Shown: positions 12,380 to 60,300 of the stretch, one piece after another
How the letters are laid out: each line of letters starts with the position of its first letter
Numbering within the stretch: position 1 is the stretch's first letter
Source: Isoetes taiwanensis
Taxonomy: Eukaryota; Streptophyta; Lycopodiopsida; Isoetales; Isoetaceae
Direction of reading: 5' to 3'
DNA length: 64,000 nucleotides
NCBI GenBank assembly: GCA_021234155.1
Contig: JAJEKV010000016.1
Coordinates: forward strand, 20,214,441-20,278,440
Notes under the pieces: model-generated
Database searches by the model: none
The model's input: the letters and a program-made list of their open reading frames with translations, nothing else
What the model was told of the DNA's origin: nothing
Position numbers and translations under genes: made by a program

Positions 12380-13972
12380 TGTGACGCTCCCAGAACATAT
12401 ACGACCCTCGGACGTATACATACGGGGACTTTCCCCTCCCATGGCGTCGGCTCACCATGAGCGAGGGCCCTCAAGTGCGTGTTCGGGCCATCTATGAAAT
12501 GAGGCCGAAGAAGGACACGAAAGGGGTCATTTCGCCCACGCCTTCAATGGGACTCCTACGTGGCGGAAGCATGAATACAAGGGTTAGCACCGCCTGCGAA
12601 TATACATAAATAGCCACCACGAAGGGTGGCGATCCATCCAAAATACCAACGGCATAGAATATGCATCTAATCCTAAGAAAACGCCCAAAACCCGGGTTCT
12701 ACCCCTCGGAGACTCTAGTGAGGGATCGACTGACGGCTGGGCCTCAAGAGATCCGGCGGACCGAGTCTTGGCATGGCGTCGGGTGGCATAGAACATCGGC
12801 TAGGGTTGTCCACTCCATCCACCCCTCACATTGCACACTGCAGATGGGTCAATTCATGCTATGGCCCGGCTATAGCCTTCCTAGACGCAGTTCAAGGGAT
12901 CACCCTTTTGAGCCTACTCGGGTTCATGGCTTTTGGTCCGATGAGGCAGGCCTGGGAAGCGTCCCCTTCGGAATCCGGTGGTTCCATGGGTGAGCTAGAG
13001 AATACGTTTTTTCGGCTGACCCCGCATCCGTACCCGACTTACTCACCTAAATCTACTCAAAGTGCAAGGTGCTCCATACGGATCACACCTCTACACCCGA
13101 GGGAGTGTCGGACCCATACCCGGCCCTCGTGGCCAGGCCATCGGGCCTAGCCCCTTGTAGGAGTCTCGGGGAGCCTTGTATGCTGCGTGCAAGACCCCAC
13201 CCCTCATGTCACCACTGTGTTCCTTGTCTGGTGCTAAGCCGGACCATAGCATCTAGGACCGGTGGGCTCTTGTGCCACAGCCGCAAATAATGGGACTCTA
13301 CGTAGCTATCTAGGAGCATACTACAATACGGTTACCAGAGGTCTCTACCCCCGTAATCCCCGTTTGAGTCGATTAAACAAAGAACTAACAATCCATCCCT
13401 TTGAGTAAGAACCGAATTGAATATAAAGAGAACTTGCTTGTACAATCAAGGGTTAGTTTCTATGATTGAATCACAAAGAGAACAGAGAAAGCGGACACAA
13501 CCAAGCGTTATCTAGAATCCACATAGCCACCCACGAGATTCTCGGGGACTCGTTTCCATGGGGCCTCCATCTCACGGGAGTTGAGAATTCAGCTATTGAT
13601 TCAGGGACGACCGGTATGGTGGCTCTCTGCAGGTGTATCTTTGGCGCTGACTCTGGCCTTCCTTGGTCGATCTTGAGGGAGTCAATCACGAGGGGATAGG
13701 GGGTCAAGTTGGCATCCTAACTTGGCAACCCCATGTTGCCTAATCGATTGGGGCGGTGGCCTTCCCAAACGAAGAATTAGCCTAATTAAGTTATTATCTT
13801 TAATGTATTAAATTAGCATAGCTAATTTAATCCTTTTAAAGTAACCCCTAGGTTACAATTAAGTTCCCATACCCCCATGGTGGCGTGCCTTTAGGGGGGT
13901 GGCGTGCTTGTATTTGTACATGTCAGATGAATATCGTGGCGTAGGCAGGTATAAATACATTGGAACGTCACA
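12380..13972 (-). repeat. 3' LTR of the chromovirus (left LTR)
   Basis: 1,593 bp, starting TGTGACGCTCCC and ending GGAACGTCACA. It matches 30,494-32,079 throughout and its distal half also matches 19,836-20,675. The TG...CA ends and the five-base target duplication define it. ORFs in it are not conserved between the two LTRs. Confidence 0.93.
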
Positions 13973-13984
13973 TTCTCCCTCCTT
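13973..13984 (-). other. Polypurine tract, internal copy 1
   Basis: Directly inside the 3' LTR the minus strand reads AAGGAGGGAGAA up to the LTR's TGTGACG. This is the expected position and composition of the plus-strand DNA primer of an LTR element, and it fixes the minus-strand polarity. Confidence 0.8.
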
Positions 13985-14639
13985 AAAAATAATGTCTGTC
14001 CTCGACATTGGGGTTAGTTGTCGAATACATATAAATAAAGCACTCAATTAGAAAATGGAGTTAAGAAGATAACATTAATACGTTGAAATTATAGTATTTG
14101 GACAAAGAATACATTGAAGTTGAAAATATTAAAGTACAAGCACCAAGGTGCCTTATACAAACTTATCATCAAGAGAGTGTAGGACCAAAGTTCGATTTAA
14201 AACATCCGGACAACAAAAAATCACACATGTAGACAAAACCAATACGGGAAAAATTTGGGTCATCGGCAACCCTCTATACAAGGCGGTGGACGATCTGTTC
14301 AGCGGCACGCACACATCAATATACCGTAGGTTAATAATATGATTAAATTGTGGTTGAAGGGACCACCCTATAAATACAAGGAAAAGTATCTAGAAGGGAA
14401 CCTATCATGTCTACGACTTGCAATTCATTGTGGCATAAGGAATGGTTCAGTTCCAGTATAGCGGAATGAACGCTAGTCTATTTACTAGATGCTTTTTAAG
14501 CAATTCACGGTCATGTCAACATCAACAATACATCACGTCCTAGAGAACGAAGGTGATCTCATCATTGGTTATTATTATAATATACGATGCATCTACCCTC
14601 TAGAATATGATTCTCGGCAAATCAAGCCTTCAAGCTTAG

Positions 14640-16060
14640 TCACGGGGCGGGGTTGATAGCATCGTTGATGGTGTGACCACGAGATTCCCGCATGAAGTCG
14701 GGATAGTGCTTCTCAAGGTCTATCTTCATCACCCGGGTAGCATCTTCAAGCGGTAAGTGCTTCCACTTGACCAAGTATTGCAGCATTTGAGTCCGCCGGT
14801 CTGTTTGTAAGCTTCGATCAAGAAGAGCTTGGGGCACTATTTCCATTTGCTCTTGGTCATTTCTAGGAGAGTTGGGGTATCAAGACCTCCTGGGATCGGG
14901 GTGTGTTGCTTGAAGACTCACGTGAAAGACCTTGTGGATCTTCAAGCGGGTGGCAAGTCCAAGCGATATGCTGTTCTCCCGTTGCGTTCGGTAATCTGAG
15001 CGGCTTAGCCCCATCGGGTGCCAACTTCTTACGATTACCAATTTTAAGCTTGGTTTGTTTTACTTTAATCTTAAATGGCCCGATTCAGCCCACGGAAGAT
15101 TAGGTGGGGTTGGGTGCTTATCCGCTAGACTCTTCCGGCGATGGCGATGCGGCCAATAAGTAACCCGAACTTCCTCCACCAAGGCCTGCATTTCTAAAAG
15201 GAGTTGTTGAGAGACCTCCACTTTAGAAACGGGGGTTATGCCATTAATGCGGAGTAAAGACATTGGTAGCCATAATTTACCATGAAGGGGAGACATCTTT
15301 GAAGACTCCTCGCCGTCTTTGTTATGGCCGAACTCTACGGATAAATATAATCCGCCCATTGTATTTGTTTACTCCATACATAGCCGTAGCATGTCTTGAT
15401 ATCCCCGATTTACGTTACGTTTGACCATGCAATGCGAGGATGGTAAAGTACATCTTGATGGCAAGCTTGGTTTTGGATGGTGGCGAAGAAATCCTTCGAG
15501 AATGCACCGACAAACTTAGGATCCCTATCGATACAATTACTCTCGGCATCCCGTGCAACGAAAATTTCTTTTGCAAAGAAGCGGTGTTAAGGCGAAGGCG
15601 GTGGTGGTGCGACATGGCGGGAAGTGAGCCATCTTTGATAATTTGTCGACCCCCGACCATTAATGCATCATATCCACGGAGAGTGCGTGGAAGGCCCACA
15701 ATGAAATCCATGGTTATGACTTCCCACTTGGCATTGGGCACATCAAAGGTTGCAACTCCACGGAACTCTTAATTGCTTTCGGCCTTGGTTTTGGCGACAA
15801 ACGACCTTCGCTTGATGTACCTAGCAATATCCTTCTTCATCGAAGGCCAAAAATAGCTGGGCCGGATCTTAAAGTAAGTTTTCATAAAACGCATGTCCGC
15901 TATAGGGTCATTGTTGTGTGTCATGGAGAATCGGCTTTCGCACCCCCGAAGTCATTTGGAACACACAACTTATCTTTGTGATATAACAAATTGCCCTCTT
16001 TTCTTATATGAGCGGAATGCTTCACGTTCTTTATTGAGTACAGGCTTCCTTACCCAAACT
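14640..16060 (-). pseudogene. Integrase with C-terminal chromodomain, internal copy 1
   Basis: Ty3-type integrase, which inserts the element DNA into the genome, read on the minus strand in several frames. The core at 15,415-15,745 shows ITMDFIVGLPRT and HGMPRVIVS, matching the first catalytic-Asp block and the stretch leading to the second. At 15,060-15,360 the post-catalytic region reads LLLEMQALVEEV. At 14,640-14,846 the segment LQYLVKWKHLPLEDATR is a chromodomain, the mark of chromoviruses, which in the family can guide integration to modified histone tails. The frame is broken many times; comparison with copy 2 puts many breaks at CHG-type sites, so they may be consensus errors. Confidence 0.85.
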
Positions 16061-16229
16061 TTCCCAAATATTACAAAATTAGGGATGCGTGGCGAGGGGT
16101 ATGTTCTATCTGCTTCCCAAACTGGTGAGTGTGGAAATGGCGTTACAATGGGTCCGGGTTATGAAGGGATGACGTGACAAAGCATCCCAACCACATTGTG
16201 CTTTCGGCTTGTATACAATCTCGAAGTCA

Positions 16230-18010
16230 TATTCCTCGAGGAATTCCATCCATCTTCCGATTGTGGAGATTTAGATTTGTTTGGGTGGATAGATAGCGGA
16301 GACTCGATGATCCTAGATCGAGCTGAAACCTTCTACCAAGAAGGTAGTGTCTCCAAAACTGGGAGAGCACGAACAACTGCCGGCAACTCGATCATGGGTA
16401 GGGTGCCGCTGCTCTGCGTCATTCATCTTCTTTGAATCGTAGGCAACAACTCTCCCCCTCACGCATTAACACTCACCCCGGTAGCTATCTTACTAGCATC
16501 GGTGGCCCCACTTATCCTTTTCGGGGATCGGGCAAAGTGAGGACTGGTGCGGATGTTAAAAGCATCCTTTAGTTTACGGAAGCCGACTTGGACTTTTTTG
16601 TTTTCCAATGTTCCATCCAATCCTTCACTTTCTCATGCTTTGTGAGATTAGTAAGAGGTCGCGGCAATTGTTGCAAAATCCTTAACAAATTTTTAGATAA
16701 TATCTGCGAGTCCCAAGAAACTCCGAACTTATGAAACATTATTTGGAATGGGCCAATCCTTTTTTGCTTCTATCTTACTTTGGATCAGTAGCAATTCCCT
16801 CTGCTGAAATAATATGCCCCAAATAGTCGACCCCTGAAATTGGCGAACTTGCATTTAGAAAACTTGGCAAAAGGCGATGGCGTCTTAGCTTACGCAAAAG
16901 CCAATCGAAGATGTTGTTCATGTTGCTGCAAGGTTTTACTATAGATGAGAATGTCATCAAAGAAAATGACAACAAAGTCATCCAAGTATTGGCGGAAGAT
17001 GTCATTCATCAACCGCATAAGCGTTAGGGGGCATTGGTCAATCAAAAGGCATGGCGGTAAATTCATAATGCCCATATGCGGTCGAAAGCGGACTTATGAA
17101 TGTCCTCCTCCTTTATCCTTATTTGATGGTACCGGGCGTAAATCAATCTTTGAAAATATTTTGCTCCTTTATGGCTGGTCCATAAGATCATCTGCCCTAG
17201 GCAAAGCATAGCGATTCTTGATGGTATGCTTATTGATTTGCCTATAATCAATACACATTCTTAAGGAGCCATCTTTCTTCTTGACAAAAAGAATAGGGGC
17301 GTAAATGGTGAAACACTAGGCGAATAAACCCCGGGTTCATTAACTCTTGTAGTTGTTTCTTAAGCTCCGCTAACTCTGGAGGGCTCATTCGTGCGGGCCT
17401 TGCTGGTAGGCTTAGTACCGGTTCAAAGTTAATTCACATTCTACCCCTCCGAAAGGAGGAAGCTTGTGGATCTCATCTGGAAAAAGATCGCTAAATTCGA
17501 AGAAGGGTAGCAATAATGCGGTGCTAAGGCGTCGATTACTTTTTACGTTTTGAGTCGACTCAATGGAGGCAAGTTTAATGAGGCAAAGGAGTTCATTCTG
17601 GCGTATAGCTTTTTCTAACTTGTTTATTGACATCGGCGATATGGAGTGGAATGAATCACCTTTTTATAGTCACCGTGCTCCATTGGCGGCGTTGAAGGTG
17701 ACCTCCGTTTCTCCACGATCTATGTTGGCCTTGGCGGATGCTAAAAACTCCATTCCAACAATAAGATCATATTTGCCAATGTCCATTAACTCAGCACCTA
17801 AGGCAAGCGTGCACTGGCTGCAATCCCCATCTTGGTTATACGGCGACCATGAGTGTGTGCGATCTTACCAGCGGCTAATGTGATTGGCTTAGGTCGGGAT
17901 CTCAACGTTTCCGGTGCAGTTTTGGGCCATTCTAGGAGAAGCAAAATTATGCGTACTACCGTGTCCATCAAAATTACGAAAGGGCTTACCGTCTACTTGG
18001 CCTATTGTAG
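16230..18010 (-). pseudogene. Protease, reverse transcriptase and RNase H, internal copy 1
   Basis: Central pol domains on the minus strand. RNase H lies near 16,240-16,520. RT is at about 16,560-17,400: [18 protein letters not shown] at 16,945-17,075 carries the catalytic DD pair, and DYLGHIISAEGIAT near 16,800-16,850 is the conserved connection segment. A protease-like region is near 17,700-17,980: it holds an Asp-Thr pair followed by VV where DTG is usual, and downstream a YDLIVGMEF stretch typical of Ty3 proteases. Domain order is that of Ty3/gypsy. Frames are fragmented. Confidence 0.85.
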
Positions 18011-19361
18011 AAATAAGGTATAGTGACTTTCGGCGTTACTGTTTCTATGGCGGCAAGAATATGAGACACACCGTGAATGTACTTTCGGAGCCTCGTCCTC
18101 AGCGAGGAGATTGGACTCGGATCTTCCCAATCAAAGGTCGGCCATGGCGGTAGGCGTCTAGCGTGGCGGGTACTGGGCAGTGCATGAAGTGTCCGGGCCT
18201 CATACACCTGTAGATATGCCTTATCGGTGGGCTGTTCTCGGCCTCTTTAGGGATGGATCTTAAGAGGCCCCGAACCTCCTTTCCGGCAGATATTACGCTT
18301 GCTCGGGCGTGCTAAAGGCGACTTTCTCTCGCCGTAAGAATTTGTCTTGAAGGGCCCGGACTTGGCGAAGCGGGGTTTGTAAAGCGTGGGCCAGGCGTGG
18401 TTACTTGGCGAATAAGGAGCGTGTCGCGGATCTTGGTTCCTTGGCGTGTCCTCCTCGAGGCTTAATGCCTTAGCTTCGCCTCTGCTCGCGATTTTGGGTC
18501 TATGGCCTTGACCATGCGTTTAATGGATGGGGCCAACCCTTCAATGTAGCCCTCGCCCTTTTTCGTTCATCACGGTACATACAACCTCAAAGCATAAATT
18601 CATCCGATTGTAGGCACGAGCGGACATGCCCTTACGTTTCCAGCTTTGTAGAAGGTCTGAATACATTGGCATTTGTATGAGCCGCATAATGCGATTTGAA
18701 AGCCTTAGCGAACTTCTTGAACTTACCTGCTCTGTCGGGTGCTTAGCTCTGGCATAACCCTTCCACCAAATCACGGGCAGCTCCGGTAAGGTTGGTGGTG
18801 GCAACCTTCCACTGTATCCTTCTCGTCATTCCATAGGACTTCCCAAACTCCTTCATTTAGATCAACCAAGATTCCGCATTCAAGCCTCCTACGGATTTCC
18901 CATCAAAGCGAGCCAACTTCGGTTCTTCCATATACTAGTTATGGCTGTATCAGCGGTTTTCGGTATTCCTTATCCTTACGCCTCGAATGGTCAGCATGCG
19001 ATAGCGATGACCGGAGAAGACACGAAGTGGTTGAATGTGAGAGCGGCGCTATCCTTAGAGGAACCCGATGGCGCTTAGCATGAGTCCTCCTTTATGCAGG
19101 TGGGGCTAGCTCTGGGAGGAGATGGCATTTGTGCGAGGTGGACTCAAGGGTGTGAGGTAATTCGATCCGTCCTCCGAGTGCATTGCGGTGGATTGGTATG
19201 CAACACATAGACACAGTAATTAGCCGGAGTTGCCTTTTCATTAACATCAATTCTGTTGGGGGTGGAGCCTTCTTGGCGTTGGAGGGTGTTTGCCAAGCGG
19301 CATTGCGTGACATGTAGGGAGCATTCATGAATATATAAAGTAGATTTACATTAATGTACAA
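18011..19361 (-). pseudogene. Gag (capsid/nucleocapsid), internal copy 1
   Basis: Minus-strand gag. Near 18,870-18,930 the strand encodes a PKLARFDGK-type stretch followed by a Trp-containing helix, and near 18,541-18,804 VIWWKGYARAKHPTEQVSS; both fit the Retrotrans_gag capsid core. A Cys/His-rich stretch near 18,180-18,215 may be a zinc knuckle, but spacing is uncertain because copy 2 differs there by an indel. The N-terminus is probably near 19,330. The frame is broken in both copies, at different places. Confidence 0.7.
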
Positions 19362-19835
19362 TCCCTTTAAAATAATCGAGACAAAAGAATTTATACAAAA
19401 GAAGACAATATTTTTATTTCATTCAAGTTGAGTACAACAACAAGTTGATTGGTACATGGGTTAAGACAAAAGTAGGTATGATCTGATGGAAACTTTTAAA
19501 GTTCTAGTCGCTGCGTAACGGCAACAAAAAAACATAAGCGGAAGAATCAGGCCTAGGGGGGTTGGCGAAAGTGCAGGATCGTGGCGAGGTACTCTCCGAT
19601 ACCGGCTTCGGGCGAGTTTATAAGCGTGCCGGGGCGGACAATGATTGCTTAGTATTCCCATGTTGGGCTGATAATGAAAGTTTAAAAAGCCGCGCATAGC
19701 ATAAAGTTGCAAAAGGTGGTGGATTGCGTCCTCGAAAGCCTTCGTGCCTGCTCATATTCCGGTAGTCCAGATGCGACCGCGGGGGTCATCTTAGTCTTGA
19801 GCTTCGGTCCCTAAGGATGTTAACTATCTCCAGTA
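19362..19835 (-). other. Gag-upstream region, internal copy 1, ending at a recombination junction
   Basis: Continues collinear with copy 2 (about 26,020-26,488) until AACTATCTC at 19,822-19,830, then switches after about five unmatched bases to the middle of an LTR. Copy 1 therefore lacks the ~4 kb present upstream of gag in copy 2. Confidence 0.75.
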
Positions 19836-20675
19836 CCTCTACACACCCGGTGTCGGACCCATACCGGCCTCATTGGCCAGAGCTGTCGGACCCTAGCCAG
19901 CTGTGGGGTCTGGGGGAGCCTTGCCCGTACTTCGTGCAGACCCACCCTCATGTCACCAGCGTGTTGCATGCGTTGCGGACCATAGCATCGGACGGTGGGC
20001 TCTTGTGCAGGCATAAATAATGCAGGACTCTCACGAGGTATCTGGGAGCATACTACATTACCACGGTTGAGAGGTCTACCCCATCCCCGTTCAGGAGTCA
20101 GATTAAACAAAACTAACAATCCATCCTTGATTAAAGCCAGGGTGAATATAAAGAAATTTGCTTGTACAATCCAGGGGTTAGTTTCTATGATTGAATCACA
20201 AAGAAACGGACTGGCGTTAATAAGTTACATAACCACCTACCCACGGTCGGCTGGACTGGATTTCATAGAGCCTCCATCTCGGGAGTTGACGATTCAGGTA
20301 TAGATTCAGCTCTCGGCCCGGTAAATATGGTATATCTTCGACTCCACGGCTTCCTTGGGCCGATCTTGGGAGTCCGATCCCGCGGGGATAGGGGTCAAGT
20401 TGGCATCACTGGCAACCCCCATGCTGCCAATCGATTGGGCGGGGTAAGCCCTTCCCAAGCGATAATTAGCCTAATTGGTTATTATCTTTGTGTAGAATTA
20501 GCATGTTTAATCGCCTTTAGGTTACAATTAAGTTCCCATATACCCCATGGTGGCATACCTTTAGGGGGGTGGCGTGCTATATTTTTGGGGACCTTTTAGG
20601 GGGATGGTGCTTGTGTTTGTACATGTCAGGTATGAATACGTGGCGTGAACCGTGTATAAATCATTGGGCGTCACA
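19836..20675 (-). repeat. Partial internal LTR of the chromovirus
   Basis: Matches the distal part of the LTRs (about 13,087-13,972 of the left LTR), from CCTCTACAC to the GTCACA end. The first ~700 bp are missing, replaced by the copy 1 gag-upstream junction. A purine tract follows at 20,676-20,688, so this was once the 3' LTR of the copy 2 element. Confidence 0.88.
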
Positions 20676-21319
20676 TTCTCCCCTCCTTAAAATAATCTTT
20701 GTCGGCATTGGGGTTAGTTAATGAATACATATAAATAAAAGCACTCAATTAGAAAATGGAGTTAAGAAGATAACATTATACGTTGAAATTATAGTATTTG
20801 GACGATAATACATTGAAGTTGAAAATATTAAAGTACAAGCACCAAGGTGCCTTATACAAACTTATCATCAAGAGTGTAGGACCAAAGTTCGATTTAAAAC
20901 ATCCGGACAACAAAAAATCACATGTAGACAAAACCAATACGGAAAAATTGGGTCATCGACAACCCTCTATACAAGGCGGTGGCGATCATTCCAACGGCTT
21001 TGCACACATCAATATACCCGTAGGTTAATAATATGATTAAATTGTGGTTGAAGGACCACCCTATAAATACAAGAAGGAAAAGTATCTAGAAGGGAACCTA
21101 TCATGTCTGACTTGCAATTCATTGTGGCATAAGGAATGGTTCGGTTCCCGTATAGAGGAATGGTCTATTTACTAGATGCTTTTAAGCAATTCACGGTCAT
21201 GTCAACATCAACAATACATCACGTCCTAGAGAACGAAGGTGATCTCATCATTGGTTATTATAATATCGATGCATCTACCCCTCTAGAATATGATTCTCGA
21301 CAAATCAAGCCTTCAAGCT

Positions 21320-22740
21320 TACCGCCGGGGAGGGGTTGATAGCATCGTTGATAATCTTGACCCGAGATTCCCCATGAAGTAGGATAGTGCTTCTCAAGGT
21401 CTATCTTCATCACCCGGGTAGCATCTTCAAGCTGGTAAGTGCTTCCACTTGACCAAGTATTGCGACATTTGAGTCCTTACAGTACGTTTGTAAAGCTTTC
21501 GATCAAGAAGAGCTTGGGCACCTATTTCATTGCTCTTGTCATTTCTAGGAGTTGGGGTATCAAGACCTCCTCCCGGATCGGGTGTGTTGCCGAAGACTCC
21601 GTGAAAGACCTTGTGTGGATCTTCAAAAGCGGGGGTGGCAAGTCAAGCGATATGCTTGTTCTCCCGCAGCGTTCGGTAATCTGAGCAGCCCACCCATTTG
21701 GGTGCCAACTTCTTCTGATTACCAATTTTAAGCTTGGTTTTGTTTTACTTTAATCTTAAGCCAAACTGATTAAGCCCACCGGAAGATTCGTGGGGTTGGG
21801 GTGCTTATCAGCTAGACTCTTCGGCATTTGCGTCGCGGCCAATAAGTAACCCGGGGAACTTCCTCCACCAAGGCTGCATTTCTAAAAGGAGTTGTTGAGA
21901 GACCTCCACTTTAAGCTTGGGGGTTATGCTGCGATGTGCGGAGTAAGACATTGGTAGCCATAATTTACCATGAAGGGGAGACATCTTTGAAGACTCACGC
22001 CCGTCTTGTTATAGGCGAACTCTACGGATAAATATAATCCGCCCATTGTATTTATTTTACTCCATACATAGCCGTAGCATGTCTTCCGATAATACGATTG
22101 ACCGTTTCTGTTTGACCATCAATACGAGGATGGTATGGTGGTACATCTTGATGGCAAGCTTGGTTTGGATGGTGGCGAAGAAATCCTTCGAGAATGCTGC
22201 GACAAACTTAGGATCCCTATCGATACAATTACTCTCGGCATCGTGCAACCTGAAAATTTCTTTTGCAAAGAGCAAAGGCGGTGTCGAAGGCGGTGTCCGT
22301 GGTGCGACATGGCAGGAAGTGAGCCATCTTTGATAATTTGTCGACCGACCATTAATGCATCATATCCACGGAGTGCGTGGAAGGCCCACAATGAAATCCA
22401 TGGTTATGACTTCCCACTTGGCATTGGGCACATCAAAGGTTGCAACTCCCCTGGAACTCTTAATTGCTCGGCCTTGGTTTTGCGACAAACAAACAACGCT
22501 TGATGTACCTAGCAATATCCTTCTTCATCGAAGGCCAAAAATAGCTGGGGCGGATCTTAAAGTAAGTTTTCATAAAACCCATGTCCCGCTATAGGGCTGT
22601 TGTGTGTGTCATGGAGAATCAGCTTTCGCACCCACAGTGTTGGAACACACAACTTATCTTTGTGATATAACAAATTGCCCTCTTTCTTATATGAGCGGAA
22701 TGCTTCACGTTCTTTATTGATGCAGGCTTCCTTACCCAAA
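21320..22740 (-). pseudogene. Integrase with chromodomain, internal copy 2
   Basis: Same domains as copy 1. The core at 22,057-22,391 includes RGYDALMV and ESNCIDRDPKFVAAFSKDFF, where the second catalytic Asp context is better preserved than in copy 1. At 22,557-22,739 the zinc-binding N-terminal part reads GNLLYHKDKLCVPT and then HDTHNSPIAGH. The chromodomain region lies at 21,330-21,540. Frames are interrupted at sites that differ from copy 1. Confidence 0.85.
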
Positions 22741-22929
22741 CTTTCCCAAATATTACAAAATTAGGGATGCGTGGCGAGTGCATTTCTCACGCTTCCCAAA
22801 CTGGTGGTGGTGTGGAAATGGCGTTACAATGGGTCCGGGTTATGAAGGGATGGCGTGACAAAGCATCCATAACCACATTGTGCTTTCTGGCTTGTATACA
22901 ATCTCGAAGTCATATTCCTCGAGGAATTC

Positions 22930-24680
22930 CATCCATCTTATTTGAGGAGATTTAGATTTGGCTGGGTGGATAGATAGCGGAGACTCGATGATCCGTGTCG
23001 GTGAAACCTTCTACCAAGAAGGTAGTGTCTCCAAATCACGAGAAACACGAACAAGCTGCCGGCAACTCGATCATGGGTAGGGTATGTTGCTCTGCGTCAT
23101 TCATCTTCTTTGAATCGTAGGCAACAACTCTCCCCTCTGCATTAACCTCCGCCGGTAGCTATCTTACTAGCATCGGTGGCCACCGGCTTATCCTTTTGAG
23201 GATCGGGCAAAGTGAGGACAGTGCGGATGTTAAAGCATCCTTTAGTTTCTGGAAGCCGACTTGGACTTTTGTTTTCCAATGTTCCATCCAATCCTTCACT
23301 TTCTCATGCTTTGTGAGATTAGTAAGAGGTGCGGCAATTGTTGCAAAATCCTTAACAAATTTTCGATAATATCCTGCGAGTCCCAAGAAACTCCAGAACT
23401 TATGAAACATTAGGCTGGAATGGGCCAATCCTTTCTTTGCTTCTATCTTGGCTGGATGCGTAGCAATTCCCTCTGCTGAAATAATATGCCCCAAATAGTC
23501 GACCCTCGGAGTGGCGAACTTGCATTTAGAAAACTTGGCAAAGAGCTGATGGCGTCTTAGCTTCTGCAAAGCCAATCGAAGATGTTGTTCATGTTGCTGC
23601 AAGGTTTTACTATAGATGAGAATGTCATCAAAGAAAATGACAACAAAGTCATCAAGTATTGGCGGAAGATGTCATTCATCAACGCGCATAAAGCGTTGCG
23701 AGGGGCATTGGTCAATCAAAAAGGCATGACGGTAAATTCATAATGCCCATATCGGTGCGGCGGACTTATGAATGTCCTCCTCCTTTATCCTTATTTGATG
23801 GTACGGGGATAAATCAATCTTTGAAAAATATTTTGCTCCTTATGGCGGTCCATAAGATCATACTGCCCTAGGCAAAGCATAGCGATTCTTGATGGTATGC
23901 TTATTGATTTACCTATAATCAATACACATTCTTAAGGAGCCATCTTTCTTCTTGACAAAAGAATAGGGCGCCAAATGGTGAAACACTAGGCGAATAAACC
24001 CAGGTTCGGTAACTCTTGTAGTTGTTTCTTAAGCTCGCTAACTCGGAGGAGGCTCATTGGTGCGGGCCTTGCTGGTAGGCTTAGTACCCGGTTCAAGGAA
24101 GTTAATTCACATTCTACCCCTCTGAAGGAGGAAGCTTGTGGATCTCATCTGGAAAAAGATCGCTAAATTCTCGAAGAAGGGTAGCAATGTGCGGTGCTAA
24201 GGCGTCGATTACTTACGCTTGGAGTGGGACTCAATGGAGCAAGTTTAATGAGCAAAGGAGTTCATTCCTGCGTATAGCTTTTTCTAACTTGTTTATTGAC
24301 ATGTCTGCATAGCGGGTGGAATGAATCACCTTTTATAGTCACCGTGCTCCATTGGCGTTGAAGGTGACCTCCCGTTTTCTCCACAGTCTATGTTGGCCTT
24401 GGCGGATGCTAAAAACTCCATTCCAACAATAAGATCATATTTGCCAATGTCCATTAACTTTCGGCACCTAAGGCAGCTGGTGCACAGCACATCTTAAGGT
24501 TAATCTGGCGTGACCATGAGTGTGTACGATCTTACTTGGCTAATGTGATTGGCTTAGGTCGGGATCTCAGCGTTTCAGCTGCGATGCACAGGCCATTCTA
24601 GGAGAAGCAAAATTATCGCGTACTACCGTGTCCATCAAAATTATGAAGGGCTTACTGTCTACTTGGCCTATTGTAGAAAT
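22930..24680 (-). pseudogene. Protease, reverse transcriptase and RNase H, internal copy 2
   Basis: Contains the longest open pol stretch of the window, 147 codons at 23,159-23,602. It covers the end of RT and the connection region: [35 protein letters not shown] and FLGLAGYYRKFVKDFA, all hallmark Ty3/gypsy segments. RNase H follows at about 22,950-23,170 with an Asp-Ala-Ser stretch and a YDSKKMNDAEQ-type segment. The protease region is near 24,400-24,640. It is the same element family as copy 1. Confidence 0.88.
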
Positions 24681-24699
24681 AACGAAGGCTGACTTTCAG

Positions 24700-26000
24700 C
24701 GTTACTTTGTTTCTATAGCGGCAAGAATATGAGACACCCGTGAAACCTTTCGGGAGCCTCGTCCTCCTTGAGATTGGACTCGGATCTTCCCAATCAAGGT
24801 CGACCATGGCCAGCTAGGCGTCTGCGTGGCTGGCGGGCAGTGCATGAAGTGTCGGGCCTCATACACACTGTAGCATGCCTTATCCGTGGACTGTTCTCGG
24901 CCTCTTTAGGGATGGGTGTAAGAGGCCCGAACCTCCTTTAGGCATTGTTACGCTTATCGGCGTGCTAAAGGCGACTTTTTCTCGAGGCGGCCGTAGAATT
25001 GTCTTTGAGAGGGCCCGGACTTGGCGAGCGGGGTTTTGTAAAGGCGTGGGCCAGGCGTGGTTGCGAATAAGGGCGGTCGCGGATCTTGGTTCCTTGGCGT
25101 GTCCTCCTCGAGGGCTTAATGCCTTAGCTTCCGCCTCTGCTACTGATTTTGGGTCTATGGCCTTGACCATGCGTTTAATGGATGGGGCCAACCCTTCAAT
25201 GTAACCCTCTTTGCCCTTTTTCATTCATTCACTGGTACATACAACCTCAAGCGCATAAATTCATCGGTGTAGGCCTGAGCGGACATGCCCATACGTTTCC
25301 AACTTTGTAGAAGGTGCGAATCTGTTGGCATTTATTGCGCCCGAGGCGCGTAATGCGATTTGAAAGCCTTAGCGAACTTCTTGAAACTTGCTCGTCCGGT
25401 GCTTAGCTCTGGCATAACCGTTCCACCAAATACAGGCGGCTCGGTAAGGTTGGTGGTGGCAACCTTCCACATGTATCCTTCTCGGAGTCATTCCATAGGA
25501 CTTCCCAAACTCCTTCATTTAGTCCAACCAAGATTCGCATTCAAGCCTCCTCTGGATTTCCCATCAAAGCCCGAGCCAACTTCGGTTCTTCCATATACTA
25601 GTTTATTGTATCAGCGGTTTTGGTATTCCTTATCCTTCGCCTCGAATGGTCCTTTGTCGATAGCGATGACCGGAAGACACGAAGTGGTTGAATGTGAGGA
25701 AGCGGCTATCATAGAGGAACCGATGGGCTTAGCATGAGTCCTCCTTTATGCAGTGAGGGCTAGCTCACGGGAGGAGATGGGCTGTTGTGCGAGTGGACTC
25801 AAGGGTGGGTGAGGTAATTCCGGTCCGTCCTCGAGTTTGTTGCGGTGGATTGGTATGCAACACATAGGCACTGTAATTGTAGAGTTGCCTTTTCATTAAC
25901 ATCAATTCTGTTCGGTGAGCCTCTTGGCGTTGGAGGGTGTTTGCCAAAGCGGCGTTCGTACACCGTCTATAGGGAGCATTCATGAATATATAAGTAGATT
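24700..26000 (-). pseudogene. Gag, internal copy 2
   Basis: Minus-strand gag. The open stretch at 24,880-25,224 reads YIEGLAPSIKRMVKAIDPKS, typical of the C-terminal half of a gag capsid. Upstream at 25,250-25,600 are a GFDGKS-like stretch and a KVATTNLT segment matching copy 1. The N-terminus is likely near 25,983. Where one copy is broken the other is often open. Confidence 0.72.
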
Positions 26001-26919
26001 TACATTAATGTACAATCCCTTTAAAATAATCGAGACAAAAAGAATTATACAAACAGAAGACAATATTTTTATTTCATTCAAGTTGAGTACAACAACAAGT
26101 TGATTGGTACATGGGTTAAGACAAAAGTAGGTATGATACAATGGAAACTTTTAAAGTTCTACTCGCTGCAGTATGCTTGACAACAAAAAAACATAACGGA
26201 AGAGATCGGGGGCCTAGGGGTTGGCGAAGGGAGTACGGGATCGTGGCAGAGGTACTCTCCGTCGGCTTCGGACGAGTTTATAGCGTGCCCAGGCTTGGAC
26301 AATGATTGGTTGGTATTCCCATGTTGGGCTGATAATGAGAAGGTTAAAAAGCCTTCGCATAGCATAAAAGAGTTGCCAAAGGTGGTCGTTGGCGTCCTCG
26401 AAAGCCTCGTGCTGCTCATATTCGGTAGTCCAGTGCGACCGGGGGGTCATCTTCGGGTCCCGAGAGCTCGGTCCCTAAGGATGTTAACTATCTCGGCCCT
26501 TTGTCGGGGTCGTAGGGTTCTCTCACGGTGGCGGTGGTTCGATCTCATAGCCTTCCTCCCTACGGATATTCACCATATCTCTGGCCATAGTCTTGATCCG
26601 GTGGTCCGGGATCGTCTCTCCTAACCATATCGGTGATTCTCTCCTCATATTCCCAAATGGTTTCCTCTGCAACATAGTTGAAATGAATAGAGAACATTTT
26701 GTAATTCCACTATATTCTAAACTTTAATGCTTTTAAAGAGGATGTCATAAAAGAAATAATTGATTATACTCATCAAAGAGAACTTTGTATTTAATAATTA
26801 AATAAGGTACACCATTTTTTTCAATATGGTCCAAAGCGGTTGCCAATCCAAAATCTCATAAAAAACATTATATATATATATATATATATATAAAAACAAA
26901 ATTTGTATAGCACCATTAG
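26001..26919 (-). other. Spacer upstream of gag with (AT)n run
   Basis: Between gag and the extra ORFs. 26,159-26,640 has minus-strand open pieces collinear with copy 1 that may be the gag N-terminus or leader; I cannot assign them. 26,650-26,900 is AT-rich with an (AT)n microsatellite at about 26,872-26,892, unlike the GC-richer flanks. Confidence 0.5.
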
Positions 26920-28340
26920 TCTAGGAACTAGGCCCTGCCTCTTTATCCACGGCCCTAGGGGTGGTGGAAGCGGTCGGTGTCAGCGGCGTGAGTTACCCGG
27001 GGTCTCTTTGTGGCGGCCGCAGATGCAACCTCAGGTGGATATGCAGCGGCCAATGGGGCTGCTTAGTGAGGAACTTCATTCCCATCAAGGCACAATATCG
27101 ACCCAAGGCCGTCGAGGCGAGATCCGTCGTGCAGTACATAAGTAAGCGTCACGATGGGGAAGCTTCTTGTGGCGGCCGGTGTAGAAAGTGCGGAGGGCCC
27201 ACCATGAAGCCGACCTCGGCCCTAGATCTCGGGCTATGAAGAGGACTTGCGGTGTCGGAAGGCCGACAAAAAAGCGGGTAAGGTGGTTACCCGGCACCTT
27301 CCCTTGCGGGTCTCGAATCTTTGCCACTTCCTTATCCATGGGGACTTCTTCCTCCTTAAGCTCTGTTGCTCCTCCTTCTTTGTGCGGGGTTATGATATAA
27401 ATCTTCACCCTCATCATACGAGTCGGAGGAACCTCAACCATATTGATGTTTGGAGCGTGAGGTCCCCATAGCGTGAAGGCATCACAGTGCGGGGTTCGCG
27501 GCGGTTTCTGCATCACGAAAGTCTCAAAGGTGTAATAGAGTCTCCGGTAGGCTCTATGGTCTCTGGCGGGGCTGGCGGTGGTGCACCTCAGAAGCTTCGG
27601 TAGAAGTGAAATCGATAAAATCATCCATACAATACTCCCGCCAAGCTCGTAAAGTACATGGTCTTCGCGCTTTGCGTCCGAAATCCGACCACCATATGAT
27701 ACGTCCGGATAATATCATCCAAGAGAAGGTACTCTTGCCCTTGGTGATAGATAAGCGGAAAGGCCGTCTAACCACGACAAGCCTATAGCTTGTTCACTGC
27801 GGCGGTGGTAACTCCTCGCTAGCTCTTTCCAGCGGGCAAAAGTCGCCCATACCTATATGCTCATCATCCCCTCCTTGGAGGACTCGAGGCGGTTGCCCTT
27901 TCTCTGAGCAAGGTTTCATCCTCAAGCGTATTGGTCCATGAGGATGGCTGGGCTAAAGTAGCTTCCGGATATTGCATACGATCTTGGACCAGCGGCGGTG
28001 TTTACCCCATCAGACTTCCCTTCAAGACATCATAAGCATGGGTGTCTCCGCCTAACATCTGCGGACTATCTCTCGCTCCAAATACTGATTGGGGAGGATC
28101 CCGAGAGGAATACACAGAGGAAGCATTTCCTCCATGTAGAAATCAAGGAATCCGGCGTAATCCGGGTGCGGTGCATACTAATGAGGAGGTCTATCGTTGG
28201 CATAGCAAAGGTTGCAAACAGGTCGGAAGGGAACTTGTGGATCCCATTTCTCTCCATCATGGTACCAGGCGGCAAGGTGGTGGCGACCATATGGCTAGAA
28301 GGGAGGAGAGAGGAAAAGAAACGTTTGAAATAACCCTTAA
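26920..28340 (-). CDS. Extra ORF region X upstream of gag, unknown protein
   Basis: I do not recognise this protein. It lies between gag and the H3-bearing ORF, on the same strand. The best open piece is 179 codons (27,085-27,624), with VMQKPPRTPHCDAFTLWGPH and a KVPGNHLTRFFVGLPTPQV stretch; it looks like ordinary globular coding sequence, not Gag or Pol. Further upstream at 27,620-27,760 it reads LDDIIRTYHMVV, and at 28,050-28,170 another frame reads FLDFYMEEMLPLCIPLG. The pieces appear to belong to one protein broken by frameshifts. Start and stop are not defined. There is no counterpart in copy 1, which is truncated before this point. Confidence 0.5.
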
Positions 28341-28500
28341 AAGTCCCCTTTTAAACCCTTTTTTAAAAGCTGACGTCAGCACATTAGTTTACTAATAACA
28401 TAAAAACCATTAAACTTTTTAATTCAAAATACAAGTCTCTTTATTAAATATTACAAAAAAATATTTACAAATGCGGACTCCATAAAATAAAGCTAAAGGT
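28341..28500. other. AT-rich spacer between extra ORFs
   Basis: Low-complexity AT-rich DNA with no convincing open frame, separating the H3-bearing ORF from ORF X. The 3' end of the H3-bearing frame may extend into it. Confidence 0.4.
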
Positions 28501-29930
28501 TGCTTTGGGTATCCTACAGGCGAGGGGGCTAGATCCTTAGGCATTATGGTGACCCTCTTTGCGTGGATAGCGCGCAAAGATTGGCGTCACCAAAAAGTGC
28601 CACCAAGTAGGCCTCGGCTGACCTCTTGGGCGTAAAAATTGCAAAGGTTTGGAAACGGAGGTCGGTCTTGAACTGCTGTGCGATCTCCCGTACCAGCCTC
28701 TGAAAAGGTAGCTTCCTGATCAGAAGCTCTGTAGACTTCTGAAATTTGCGGATTTCCGCCAAGGCCCGCGATACGGTCGGGCACCTATGAGGCTTCCTCG
28801 TGCCCGGGCTTTCTGGTGACCCCGGTCGATCTTTGGCAGATCTTAACCCGGCCGGTCGGGGAGCTATCCACGGCTGCTGCCTCGTCGGCTTTTCGTCTTC
28901 TTCCCAAAAGCCCCGCCAGGTCCTTAGTTTCTCTTTATGCTTGGCTGCTGCCGGCCTTATGGGCTACACCCTTCTTAGGTGCTTCCCTTGATGCGGTGCA
29001 TCGGGGTTGGGCCGACCCACTCCCAGATGCTCCTCCATCTTCTGATCCCTTCTGGTCTTGTCGGTCCGTTCCTCCTCCTGCTCAAGCTTCTCCCGTTCCT
29101 CGGGCTCTCCTCAAATCTTCTTGAATCTGAGCAAAAGGGCTGGGAACCGCGGCGATTAAGTTCGACTTGAGTACCCGTTGTGACATGAGACCCATATCTA
29201 TTTGAATGGTGGTCGGATAGTCTAAGGCTGATATCGGGGATTTCTCCCCATATAAAAGCTGCTTTGGAACCCTCATGTCACCCGGTATGGGGAACCTCAA
29301 TGGCCCTGCCATCAATGGCCGACAAAGCCGTCCCAGGTACTGTATTCCCTTCCACGGGACGCCCGTATCCGCCCTTTCGATCTCCCTATGATCTTCCTCT
29401 GGCCAAACCCGATCACGGTGCCCTCTGCATACGATATCTTCCTCTAAGGTGTGGCCTTCCTGCTTTCGGGAGGATAGAATTTAATGAGCATCATGACCAT
29501 GTCGGGTTGCTCAACAATGGTATAGGAAGGTGGCGAAGGTTCAGTAGGATCAAGAATGGCTCGAGAAGTGATAGATAGGAAATGGAATCTATCGTTGTTC
29601 TCAAACCTATTTACCAGCTCATCCAGCAATTATATCAATAAGGTAGGATTCGGTGCCATGTGCTTGGCAATCATAAGCGTAGATGCACTATGCTTAGGGT
29701 CCTTGGGTCTATGGTGCTCTTGGTATTGGCCATAGGCGTGGTACTAAGGCCCTCTCTAGAATCGGGAGCGGTGGCGCTTGTGACCGAGGAGGCGGCAAAA
29801 GAGCTAAGGTTCACAAAGGCACAAAGAGCGCGAGGAGCAAGGTTGATGCAGTGGCGATGGCGGACCGGCGGCTCAAGCGGTTGGAGGGCGGGAAGCAAAA
29901 AGCAAATGACAAAAATGGTTTGTTAAACGG
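28501..29930 (-). CDS. Extra ORF Y: unknown N-terminal region fused to a histone H3 fold
   Basis: Minus-strand coding region right after the element's leader. The N-terminal part is unknown: 29,444-29,629 reads [20 protein letters not shown] and 29,082-29,315 reads [20 protein letters not shown], then a charged stretch likely to be helical or disordered. The C-terminal part (28,533-28,804) is a histone H3 core, annotated separately. Apparent frameshifts lie between the parts, so one fused protein is inferred rather than shown. It has the same orientation as gag-pol and lies inside the LTRs, so it is cargo of the retroelement. The start is not decided; nothing upstream of about 29,930 looks coding. 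Confidence 0.6.
28533..28804 (-). CDS. Histone H3 core domain inside the retrotransposon
   Basis: The minus strand reads TRKPHR, then [53 protein letters not shown] and, after a small frameshift at 28,570-28,575, [13 protein letters not shown]. These match histone H3 from the end of its N-terminal tail (KKPHR) through alpha-N, alpha-1, loop 1, alpha-2 and the start of alpha-3. It follows canonical H3 rather than centromeric CENH3: FKTDLRF is kept and loop 1 is not lengthened. The start of alpha-2 is divergent ([10 protein letters not shown]). The end after MPKD does not match the H3 C-terminus. The N-tail with modifiable lysines is not clearly preserved. No introns are seen, as expected for a retro-captured gene. 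Confidence 0.93.
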
Positions 29931-30493
29931 CCACTTAACTTTTAAAATTTCAAATTTTTTTCCTTATTAACCGAAATTTTCTTATTAAAAATTATATACG
30001 GCGGAAATCACAGCCAACCTACGCCGGGCCGATATTTTGCATTATTCCGCTTCGACTCGGAGGCGTCGTCGAAGGCAAGCGGCGCCGAGTTGACCTGGCG
30101 GGCCAGCGTTGACTTCGAATGCGGCCAGATGCCGGCGCCGGCTGACATTCGCCGCACGCCTTGACTACAAATCTACAAAGGCAGCGGCGAGTTTGTTTTT
30201 GGGCTGCCCTTGACCATTTTAAGCCTAGAGTTGTTGTTCTAGGATAATTGAGTCGCGCCCGATCAATGGAACCATCATCTTAGTCATTTGAGCTCCCCAC
30301 GACACCTGTTAGGCCTCCAATCTTGGGCCCTCCACTTCAAAGCTACAATTTCCTAACCCAACCTAACACCAAGCCAAACAACAAAGAGAACTAGCGACAC
30401 ATTGACTTAGCCTCCTCCTAACTACCGGGTGCTACGTTAGTGTTTGGCGGTGCTATGATTTCGAGCAACCGAAATCACGGCTCTGACTACTGC
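29931..30493 (-). other. 5' leader of the chromovirus with probable primer-binding site
   Basis: Untranslated leader between the 5' LTR and ORF Y. Next to the LTR the minus strand reads GTAGTCAGAGC, resembling the initiator-Met tRNA primer site TGGTATCAGAGC, with the mismatches next to a CAG where consensus errors are common here. No other gene seen. Confidence 0.55.
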
Positions 30494-32079
30494 TGTGGCG
30501 GCTCGGAACATATCACGACCCTCGGACGTATACATGCGGGGACTTTTCCCTCCCATGGCGATCGACTCACCATGAGCGGGGCCCTCCGATGCATGTTCGG
30601 GCCATCTATGAAATGAGGCCGAAGAAGGACCTGAAAGGGTCATTCGCCCACGCCTTCAATGGGACTCCCTCGTCGTGGAAGCATGAATACAAAGGGTTAG
30701 CACCGCAAGACGCGAATATACATAAATAGCCACCACGAAGGGTGGCGCATCCATCAAAATACCAGCGGCATAGAATATGCATCTAATCCTAAGAAAACGC
30801 CCAAAACCGGGTTCTACCCCGGCTCGGACTCTAGTGAGGATCGGCGGACGGGCCTCAAGAGATCAGCGGGGCAGAGTCTTGGCATGGCGTCGGTGGCATA
30901 GAACATCGGCTAGGGTTGTCCACTCCATCCGCCCCTCCATTGCACACTTTGCGGATGGGTCAATTCATGCTATGGCCGCTATAGCCTTGGAAAGCAGAGT
31001 TCAAGGGATCACCCTTTTGAGCCTACTCCAGGTTCATGGCGCCTGGTCCGATGAGGCAGGTGGGGAAGCGTCCCCTTCCGAATCCACGGTGGTTCCATGG
31101 GTGAGCTAGAGAATGCGTGCCGCATCAGCGACCCCGCATCCGTGCACCCTTACTCACCCTAAATCTACTCAAAGTGCAAAGGTGCTCCATCACGGATCAC
31201 ACCTCTACACCCGGGGAGTGTCGGACCCATACCCGGCCCTCGTGACCGGCTATCGGGCCTAGCCCATTGTAGAAGTCTCGGGGAGCCTTGTATGCTCGTG
31301 CAAGACCCTACCCCTCATGTCTGCTTGTGTTCCTTGTGCAGTGCTAAGCGGACCATAGCATCTAGGACCGGTGGGCTCTTGTGCCTGAGCCGCAAATAAT
31401 GGGACTCTACAGTGGCTATCTAGGAGCATACTACAATACGGTTCAGAGGTCTCTACCCCCGTAATCCCCGTTTGGTCAGATTAAACAAAGAAATAATAAT
31501 CCATCCCTTGGTAAGAACCGAATTGAATATAAAGAGAACTTGCTTGTACAATCAAGGGTTAGTTTCTATGATTGAATCACAAAGAAACAGAGAAAGCGGA
31601 CACAACCAAGCGTTATCTAGAATCCACATAGCCACCCACCGAATTTACGGCTGGACTCGTTTCCATGGGGCGCCTCCATCTCACGGGAGTTGAGAATTCA
31701 GCTATTGATTCACCGAGGGACGGTATGGTGGCTCTCTGCCCGGTGTATGATGGCTTCGGCTCACGGCCTTCCTTGGTCGATCTTGAGGAGTCAATCGCGG
31801 GGATAGGGGTCAAGTTGGCATCCTAACTTGGCAACCCCATCTGCCCAATCGATTGGGGCGGTGGCGCCTTCCCAAACAGTAATTAGCCTAATTAAGTTAT
31901 TATCTTTAATGTATTAAATTAGCATAGCTAATTTAATCCTTTTAAGAGTAACCCCCTAGGTTACAATTAAGTTCCCATACCCCCATGGTGGCGTACCTTT
32001 AGGGGGGTGACGTGCTTGTATTTGTACATGTCCCGTATGAATACGTGACGTAGACTGTATAAATACGTGGAACGTCACA
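30494..32079 (-). repeat. 5' LTR of the chromovirus (right LTR)
   Basis: 1,586 bp, collinear with the left LTR over its whole length. It begins TGTGGCGGCTCGG where the left LTR has TGTGACGCTCCCAG, and ends GGAACGTCACA, followed by the AAGGA duplication at 32,080-32,084. Most differences from the left LTR are one- to four-base indels, so a simple divergence date would mislead. Confidence 0.93.
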
Positions 32080-33196: not shown

Positions 33197-34582
33197 AATG
33201 TGCAGTTCTTGTGCACTATAACCTTATATTTACAACTAGGCAAAATCTTAAGTGTACATAATGCTATCTTGCTTTGTGATGTGAGCTGCCTATCTCATAT
33301 CACGGAACTACAACATGTAGGACTTTATGATTAAAAGCGTACCATTATGGTTATTTATCAAAACCAAGACATCCAAATTATGCCTATAAGATCTAGATTT
33401 CATGTCAAATGGATCTGCTACATTAGCTATGAAGACAATCATTTCTTACATGTAGAAATAATGATTCAAATACAATTTCAATGCATAAAATCCAAAACTA
33501 TTATAACAGGAAGTGTAACCTGTTGTGCTTGAAGTTGAGGGAGAACTCCAGCCTAATGTTCGCATTTTCAACATTAGATTCATCCACAAAATTTTCGTGG
33601 CCATCATGCTGAGTTGTTCCAGTGCCATAGAATTATCAAAAATTGCTTATGAGATGTTTGCAGACAGGTCTTCTTTCTGCCACCGCCAAAATCCTGGCAA
33701 ATACTAATCGTTGCCTATAGATCCAGAAGAAAGTTCAGCCGTGTACTAGAATGCAGCATCAAGGATGTCTTTGCATGATCGGCTACAAAGATAGCTCTCC
33801 TTGCACGTTTTTGGCCTTTCGGCAACCCTGCTTGAATGCTCTTGCATTTCGGCCTTTATCTGTGAGTTAGGTCGTAGAGCAAGTTTTCACAACCCTAATT
33901 TGTTTCTTATCTAAGCCAAGCCATAATTTTCATCAAAAATGAAGTGTAACATACATCATATAAGTCGAAAAAACTATCTTCTAGGTGCATGTCATATTTT
34001 TCTTTTTTCTTTCAAGCCAATAACTGCAAATCTATACCAGTTTGTAGTTACATTAGTGTTGGACCTCCATATGTGTATTTCCATCTGTCTTGAGCCTGAA
34101 CTTCTTTCATGCCTATCTTTTATTTCATGCCGTAAGGCCTTCAAAACTCTTATTTTTTCTAGAACCCTCAAGCTTTAGTAAGATCTCAAGGTGTATCTGC
34201 AGAACTTACCATGTGATGAACATGTAGCTAGTTCAAGGACCTCATTTATTTCAAGTCATACGCTCGTAAAGGTCTTACATTTCTCTAAAGCCATAGAGCA
34301 ATGAATTGTAGAATCTAAGTTGTAAGCGTGGTCTTCAACATGTGCTGACTTGATCTGTTATACTGCAATAATGCAATTCCATTATCCTTAGATATGTTGC
34401 CCATTATTCCTATGCACTGGTCAAAAAATTTTCCAGTGAAAGCCAGTGAAGTCAATAAAGGTCACGCCAAAATGCCATGAAACCATAAAATCCCAATACC
34501 ATACTCATACCATTACTATGATATCTTGTATTCAAAATTGTTTGATGAACCAGTAAAGGTTTATCCCTGTATCAAATTGTAA
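33197..34582. repeat. Array unit 4, right part (truncated)
   Basis: Collinear with about 512-1,890 of unit 1 and ends abruptly after ATCAAATTGTAA. This is the right boundary of the array. No gene recognised. Confidence 0.88.
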
Positions 34583-38850: not shown

Positions 38851-39583
38851 GAACTCCACTTTAGGGTTCTATTCGCGGTTGATCCGGAAGTTATGGCTAT
38901 GGCTTGAGGAGTTCGATGGCAATGGAGTGGCGGTTTTAGGGCTCCGGATTGTAGTTCACGCTTTAGGGATTTTAATGCATCCCACGCACCTTTGTCCACG
39001 GTTGTAGCATATGCAATAGTTTCGGAACTATATTTTCTGCGTTGGATATTTCGGACACCTTGCTTTTTGTTACGTGGTTTTACCGGGCGCATCATTATTT
39101 TTACTCGAGACATCCTCATCTTTACGTTGAGTAACTTTATCTTGTACAATACGTTGTTTACCTAGAGTAAAACACGTGGGTTTAGGGCCAAAGATCGGAT
39201 CGTCTTCTGGCTCCTTAGTTTCTCCGTATACTCACAACTGTTTGGGTGAATCCTCCGTGCGATTTTGACTCTTCTTCAAGGCTTTTGGAAGAATTGGCGA
39301 TTCAAAATTGAACGCGTTTCTCAATAGTGTCGATAGATTTGGAAGATTCCACAATATTAGCCTTTTCTTGCTCGACAATCTGCAAAGGAAATGAATTTGA
39401 AGTACGATGAGATAAAAATTTGAGGTGGATAGTAAGCAAGGGCTTTTATATTTGCCCTCTTCTAGCAAAAAGCATGTAACCGCAATGGCGTAGATTCACG
39501 CCATAATGTTTTGGCGAAGGGCGTGGCCGATGCTGCGGCGGGAGAACTTAACTTGTTCAAGAACCTCGGGTTTCTCCTTTTTC
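38851..39583. other. Unassigned region left of the palindrome
   Basis: No recognised gene. Minus-strand ORFs of 78 and 104 codons (39,232-39,468; 38,835-39,149) have exon-like composition but match nothing I know. Confidence 0.45.
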
Positions 39584-42920: not shown

Positions 42921-42930
42921 CAAATAAGTA
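42780..42930 (+). pseudogene. Coiled-coil exon fragment (right arm of the palindrome)
   Basis: From a TTAATAG acceptor the plus strand stays open with a strongly charged Lys/Glu heptad-like sequence: ENEAEKKIKLEMRRKREAEL and EEEKLAIQEKIRLQ, up to a GTTTGA boundary. It is probably one exon of a coiled-coil protein; I cannot name the gene and see no neighbouring exons that join it. The reverse copy in the left arm (39,584-39,722, minus strand) is disrupted at CAG-type sites. Confidence 0.5.
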
Positions 42931-60296: not shown

Positions 60297-60300
60297 GGAT

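Follow-up and report, generated by a model that had tools for sequence, protein, structure and literature searches.

A chromovirus-type retrotransposon family of Isoetes taiwanensis carries a histone H3 core at the end of its first gene

Results

Architecture of the element in the window

The stretch of Isoetes taiwanensis DNA analysed here (64,000 nucleotides; hereafter the window, whose positions are used throughout) contains a chromovirus-type LTR element on the minus strand, spanning 12380..32079 from LTR to LTR and including an internal duplication. In element orientation, the 5′ LTR lies at 30494..32079 and the 3′ LTR at 12380..13972, both on the minus strand; LTR1 and LTR3 are 89.5% identical and the same repeat is found on either side of the element. 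The target site duplication (TSD), AAGGA, however, sits within a GGAA run. A partial third LTR (19835..20675, minus strand) shows, for most of its extent, approximately 73% identity with the outer LTRs. Comparison of 19835-26494 with 13087-19830 identified this LTR together with a second internal part, and the complex structure of the element perhaps arose from recombination or template switching.

Between the 5′ LTR and gag-pol lie extra genes, all on the minus strand and all broken in this copy. The first, ORF-A (28490..29733, end approximate), is composed of an N-domain, a linker, a basic region and a C-terminal histone H3 core, and was recognised by tblastn with two parts of a sibling copy, L020, the N-domain matching at E 3e-21 and the H3 core at E 3e-37. 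The H3 core occupies 28527..28798, with a frame break near 28590. ORF-B (27000..28291, ends approximate) and ORF-C (26217..26670) belong to no known family; the former was delimited by tblastn with ORF-B of L013 over 28276-27602 (E 1e-9) and for the remainder by eye against siblings, and the latter by tblastn with ORF-C of L026 (E 7e-39). These are followed by a broken gag (25120..25997; tblastn with gag of L013, E 1e-36) and a reverse transcriptase (RT) region (23162..23935; RVT_1 E 2.9e-11, tblastn E 4e-69), each with a second copy in the duplicated part, and by a partial chromodomain match under the Pfam cut-off (21430..21642; Chromo E 0.0016), likewise on the minus strand.

The surroundings of the element are also repetitive. 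A tandem unit of approximately 4.5 kb fills 1-11705 in copies that are 94-96% identical, part of it recurs at 33206-34582, and the chromovirus inserted into sequence related to this unit. Further along the window, we identified a 3.3-kb inverted repeat at 39580-42924 with arms approximately 91% identical and, at 60277-61961, a pair of open frames that overlap, 281 and 341 aa long, neither with a Pfam match.

The LTR pairs of the window element and of three siblings (L009, L010 and L014) are unusually rich in indels relative to substitutions, the indels being mostly of 1-2 bases where measured, and transitions are about as frequent as transversions in the same pairs. According to the available part of the genome paper (PMC8566536), racon and pilon were used to polish the Nanopore contigs of the assembly, which totals 1658.30 Mb (204 scaffolds and 909 contigs). 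The indel excess may reflect residual Nanopore assembly error in repeats. The indel-rich repeat pairs and the Nanopore-based assembly together suggest that the frame breaks of the window copy may be mostly sequencing errors, against which stands the presence of open-frame copies in the same assembly.

The histone H3 core of the window copy

The first-pass annotation had described a minus-strand H3 core inside an element bounded by LTRs and a target duplication, and this description was borne out by the LTR pair, the AAGGA duplication and three kinds of protein match. The Pfam Histone family matched 28547-28963 on the minus strand (E 1.6e-21), the best PDB matches of this piece were H3 chains (E 3.4e-32), and tblastn against the window aligned H3 residues 27-117 at 64% identity (E 5e-34), with residues 94-125 in a second frame (E 3e-5). 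The motif FKTDLRF and a further 13-residue H3 piece were located in different frames, surrounded by indels and stops; a forced end-to-end alignment of the copy to H3 required at least 51-53 substitutions and 14 indels.

Aligned to ordinary H3 alone, the tail (residues 1-36) and the last residues (124-136) of the window H3 were matched as well by 52 and 48 of 200 shuffles, respectively; against the wider stretch, 7 of 60 shuffles did as well as the tail. Because neither end scored better than shuffled sequence, only the H3 core is provable from the window. We rejected the idea that the window H3 is a decayed full-length gene complete with its tail and that the larger ORF arose by chance, given the failed shuffle test of the tail and the existence of siblings with a single frame. 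Window positions 26211-31473 are collinear with sibling L020 in a single alignment of 5473 columns at 75% identity. The window ORF-A shares the N-domain type of L020, designated type C, and its H3 core is also closest to that copy (77% over 81 aa).

A genome-wide family with H3 as cargo

Profile searches covered the whole genome (1,658,258,908 bases in 1110 sequences). With the histone model, 8705 first-look candidates yielded 150 scored matches, consisting of 15 full-length H3-like and 135 core-type matches. The full-length matches span model positions 2-122, and the eight retrieved as loci are ordinary H3 genes. The core-type matches start at model positions 4-25 and end at 122; 55 of the 135 are located in open frames of at least 300 aa and 21 in frames of at least 451 aa. 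We retrieved 20 of these 21 (L009-L028), leaving out one of 453 aa. Every one of the 20 encodes an ORF-A of 411-464 aa from the first methionine with the H3 core at its end, followed in L024 by 22 further residues. In all eight ORF-A proteins scanned, Pfam Histone was matched at E 1e-36 to 1e-43 and no further family rose above cut-off. The earlier proposal that H3 forms the C-terminal part of a larger ORF is thus upheld in the siblings, which encode the whole in one frame; in the window itself that frame is broken.

An independent sample was chosen by RT. Working down the list of the 150 best RT matches, we selected ten copies manually and read 4.5 kb upstream of each. They came from 20 initially picked, from which two copies already retrieved and one beside an H3 match were excluded, so that the sample is biased against H3. 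An H3 core was found upstream in seven of the ten (L029, L030, L031, L032, L034, L037 and L038) and was not found within the sampled 4.5 kb of the other three. Among the latter, L035 has LTR-like sequence close to ORF-C, with neither ORF-A nor ORF-B; L036 carries, before ORF-C, sequence unrelated to the retrieved copies; and L033 showed nothing related in the sampled 4.5 kb. These three copies indicate that an element may do without H3 or obtain it in trans.

Flanking pieces were examined for eight of the retrieved copies. Long LTR pairs were present in six (K2P 0.022-0.052), whereas L020 gave only a 140-bp match and L012 none. By eye, exact 5-bp TSDs flank L009, L010, L013 and L021, and that of L014 has one mismatch; the ends of L026 were not reached. 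The LTR pairs and 5-bp TSDs show that the copies inserted independently.

A private insertion in the window, that is, an H3 pseudogene nested in this single element or an assembly error, would agree with the broken frames and with the high indel rate between the window repeats. Against it are the many copies elsewhere that share the layout and the collinearity with L020, and a search around the window H3 yielded neither terminal inverted repeats nor Helitron-like ends; we give this explanation next to no probability. The multi-copy result rules out both the nested pseudogene and the assembly artefact. Cargo of a DNA transposon or Helitron was likewise rejected on the lack of such ends around the window H3. 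As for Pack-type or hAT transduplication, terminal inverted repeats were sought around the window H3 and none was found, and the siblings sit in LTR elements. The search for further copies, named in advance as a check, turned up many H3 copies with a common element layout. Several of them have LTR pairs and TSDs of their own, and seven of the ten copies chosen by RT bear H3, which supports the view that a host H3 was captured by the chromovirus and travels as its cargo; the uses suggested for it in the first-pass annotation, namely packaging, targeting or a decoy, are conjectural. This multi-copy Ty3/gypsy chromovirus-type family includes the window copy as a broken member.

The gag-pol backbone

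The two gag-pol ORFs of L021, scanned apart, encode capsid, protease, RT, RNase H, integrase and a C-terminal chromodomain in this order. The chromodomain was above cut-off (Chromo E 6.3e-8) and the integrase core rve just under it (29.6 bits against 32.6). The primer site reads TGGTATCAGAGC, which we take to be of the tRNA-Met type. The features of a Ty3/gypsy chromovirus were all found, namely an LTR pair with TG..CA ends, a 5-bp TSD, the order gag-PR-RT-RH-INT and a chromodomain. Chromoviral chromodomains can read H3 tails, according to the first-pass annotation, and that of this element may do so. Chromodomains of plant retrotransposons are of two types, both present in the lycophyte Selaginella; in type II, the methyl-lysine cage is incomplete, as described in the accessible portions of two papers (PMC6317226, PMC3350952).

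ORF-A and ORF-B as an exchangeable cassette

ORF-A consists of an N-domain of approximately 200 aa, a charged or glutamine-rich linker, a basic region, a heavily altered H3 tail and an H3 core that is almost intact. The 20 retrieved copies comprise 7 of type A, 12 of type B and 1 of type C. Between ORF-A and gag, at about 4450-6700 in the sense orientation of L009-L028, are ORF-B, of up to approximately 460 aa, and ORF-C, of approximately 150 aa. Among five loci listed, ORF-B measures 470 aa (L013), 460 aa (L026) and 335 aa (L018) from stop to stop and is in pieces in L010, whereas L021 has no such frame ahead of gag; L010, L018 and L026 have an open ORF-C (125-172 aa). A genome search with ORF-B gave 147 scored matches from 4855 candidates.

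No family was identified for the N-domain or ORF-B in Pfam, NCBIfam or PDB, nor for ORF-C in Pfam; three N-domains and one each of ORF-B and ORF-C were compared with Pfam. With a profile built from ten N-domains, PDB entries were matched only at E 0.2 and worse. Scans of viral contigs with the window H3 piece, an RT piece and the N-domain alignment yielded no relatives. In two protein-database searches with window-based queries, the best 120 of 7990 and of 4024 matches were proteins matching via H3, and guessed window frames of ORF-A and ORF-B found nothing in the protein database at E 10 or better.

ORF-B diverges along with ORF-A, and ORF-C along with gag-pol. In a comparison of L014 (type B) with L010 (type A), identity is 79-97% across the LTR and leader, to position 2400; over the following 3.6 kb, which contain ORF-A and ORF-B, the two are unalignable or 71-80% identical in short pieces, and identity returns to 77-95% from ORF-C onward, whereas L014 and L026, both of type B, are 83-97% alike throughout. 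The protease-RT piece was found in 16 of the 20 loci and was long enough in 14; its identity is 87.5% between types A and B (48 pairs), 87.9% within A (15 pairs) and 89.1% within B (28 pairs). N-domains, in contrast, are 45% identical between types A and B and 78-82% within them. Since protease-RT is alike and the N-domain divergent between types, the ORF-A/ORF-B types predate the backbone they share and have been exchanged. From these alignments, ORF-A and ORF-B form an exchangeable cassette on similar LTR/gag-pol backbones. The LTRs may have been exchanged too; L010 and L012, both of type A, have no alignable sequence where L010 has its LTR.

Grouping of the H3 gene with the other extra genes before gag-pol, its exchange as a cassette and the basic region that precedes the core would suit a packaging protein, with ORF-A and host H4 condensing cDNA in the particle or at nuclear entry in the manner of virion histones. 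Such a role would need host H4 in the particle; the window has no H4 match, and the ORF-B and ORF-C scanned gave no Pfam match. We consider packaging distinctly unlikely.

Selection on ORF-A

The H3 core is under strong purifying selection, the strongest in any part of ORF-A. For the 20 copies, which were picked among the best histone scores for long open frames and thus favour a conserved H3, core omega was 0.023 (95% 0.007-0.05) in type A and 0.042 (0.023-0.068) in type B. The corresponding values for types A and B were 0.126 and 0.088 in the N-domain, 0.13 and 0.26 in the linker, and 0.156 and 0.135 in the basic region and tail. Mean dS of the core was 0.53 in type A (21 pairs) and 0.79 in type B (66 pairs), and between-type core dS was saturated in 83 of 84, 7 of 7 and 9 of 12 pairs. 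LTR divergence of 0.02-0.05 is low in comparison with a within-type mean dS of 0.5-1.1, which indicates selection across many rounds of transposition. The dN/dS comparison across element copies proposed in the first-pass annotation is thus in favour of long-term use of the H3.

Six of the RT-chosen copies have near full-length H3 cores. Compared with their type reference, three have ratios of at most 0.05, namely L031 (0.05), L038 (0.03, at dS 1.9) and L032 (0 nonsynonymous and 17 synonymous changes). The other three range from 0.41 to 0.80, contain 1-4 stops and look decayed (L029, 0.68; L037, 0.41; L030, 0.80). The H3 of L034 is partial and its dS undefined. This mix of constrained and decayed copies is the pattern of living lineages with dead copies.

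Decay in the window copy and in three of the six testable RT-chosen copies, together with the LTR-like sequence adjoining ORF-C and the missing ORF-A of L035, would also be expected of a captured H3 that is carried by chance and has no function. Opposed to such a passenger are the core omega of approximately 0.02-0.04 at dS 0.5-0.8, the retention of 97 core aa across three types whose N-domains differ at more than half of their nucleotides, and the equal constraint in three RT-chosen copies picked regardless of H3 quality. Chance carriage is very unlikely.

H3 core residues, tail and origin

At 65 of the 97 core positions, all 20 copies are identical to host H3. These positions include R40, R49, R69, R72, R83 and R116, which we take to be DNA contacts, and C110, H113, D123, L126 and R129, presumably H3-H3 contacts involved in tetramer formation. 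T107A is present in 20 of 20 copies, and E105, S86 and S87 also differ from host H3 in all 20; changes at these four positions could alter contacts with H4 or chaperones. Loop 1 and helix 1 of the element H3 are mostly canonical, in a 19-residue stretch, unlike CENH3, for which a divergent loop 1 and centromere placement are characteristic.

The fold core of H3 is thus retained, and a free N-terminal tail with K4, K9 and K27 is absent. In the alignment of the 20 ORF-A proteins, inspected by eye, every copy has a shorter, remodelled tail, with the K4, K9 and K27 contexts gone; a K14-like GK remains, and the K36 position is arginine in 19 of 20. Type B tails keep TGGK or a similar motif and RKPHR, and type A tails keep less. 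A tail in which the K9 position and K27 segment are gone from all 20 copies while the core stays intact could belong to an anti-silencing histone, with ORF-A replacing host H3 on element DNA; without K9 and K27, that chromatin would be unable to carry repressive methyl marks. However, the tail may instead have eroded through lack of function, and omega of 0.13-0.16 in the basic region and tail denotes constraint of an unspecified kind. We regard this explanation as unlikely, albeit less so than packaging; both are still serious alternatives.

In an unrooted tree of 97 columns and 33 rows, with no CENH3 row, a branch with support 98/96 separates the 20 element H3s from 2 host and 11 other H3s. 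Their grouping fits one capture, and the phylogeny suggested at the outset is in this respect consistent with a single origin. Most simply, the H3 would have been captured once from a canonical-type H3.

Discussion

In our best overall explanation, to which we give about an even chance, ORF-A encodes a variant of H3 that forms pairs with host H4 and tethers the N-domain to chromatin. A chromovirus lineage would have captured a canonical-type H3 and joined it to its own first gene as the C-terminal part of the product. H3 cores fold with H4, and constraint in ORF-A is strongest on the core; we infer on these grounds that the ORF-A core would pair with host H4, giving (H3-H4)2 tetramers or nucleosomes. 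The N-domain would thereby be displayed on chromatin, where it could serve nuclear retention, targeting or integration, or shield new copies from tail-based silencing. A more specific version is tentative and falls somewhat short of even chances. It holds that the elements possess their own nucleosomal H3 variant, chimeric and without the K4/K9/K27 tail, that would be built into host or element chromatin, with diversified N-domains swapped as cassettes as in a chromatin-level arms race against host silencing.

The family shares with plant chromoviruses (Ty3/gypsy, Metaviridae) the LTRs, the primer site and the order capsid-protease-RT-RNase H-integrase-chromodomain, and differs from them in the extra genes that precede gag-pol, the first of which ends in an H3 core. 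H3 variants including CENH3 resemble ORF-A in combining a histone fold with a changed N-terminal part, whereas here the protein is element-encoded and approximately 310-370 aa stand ahead of H3. The consulted portions of a survey of plant LTR elements mention no additional or extra ORFs and no captured genes, and their sole histone passage concerns chromodomain binding (PMC6317226). The word "histone" is absent from the available text of the Isoetes genome paper (PMC8566536).

Two kinds of precedent were identified. In the fungus Pyrenophora tritici-repentis, many copies of a hAT transposon carry an H3-like gene together with an ORF whose function is unknown, according to the sections available (PMC3538342); as in Isoetes, a transposon family thus has an H3-like gene in many copies. 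The fungal element, as described there, is a DNA transposon with terminal inverted repeats, in which H3L is an ORF of its own and 26 copies are very similar (PMC3538342), whereas the Isoetes family is an LTR retrotransposon whose H3 has diversified under selection and is fused to the end of a larger protein. Plant LTR retrotransposons are known to capture genes, as in maize Bs1 and in 672 rice and 1343 sorghum genes, and there too host sequence lies inside an LTR element and is partly under purifying selection, as far as the excerpts of the two reports extend; the word "histone" occurs in neither report (PMC13317346, PMC3726574). In contrast to those cases, a single captured domain is here a diversified gene of a whole lineage. 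We found no LTR retrotransposon with its own histone in the open-licence literature, and as far as found such an element appears new there.

The family also brings a gene cassette without known relatives in the libraries searched (Pfam, NCBIfam and PDB). Few host proteins are as constrained as histones, and transposon silencing works largely through H3 marks. Judging from their sequences, the elements appear to produce and employ a version of a host DNA-packaging protein that is their own. If this is true, an H3 core kept under strong selection by a retrotransposon with rewritten tail sites would offer a direct handle on the competition between mobile elements and chromatin, and would show in a natural setting what such a core is capable of when a large foreign domain is attached to it.
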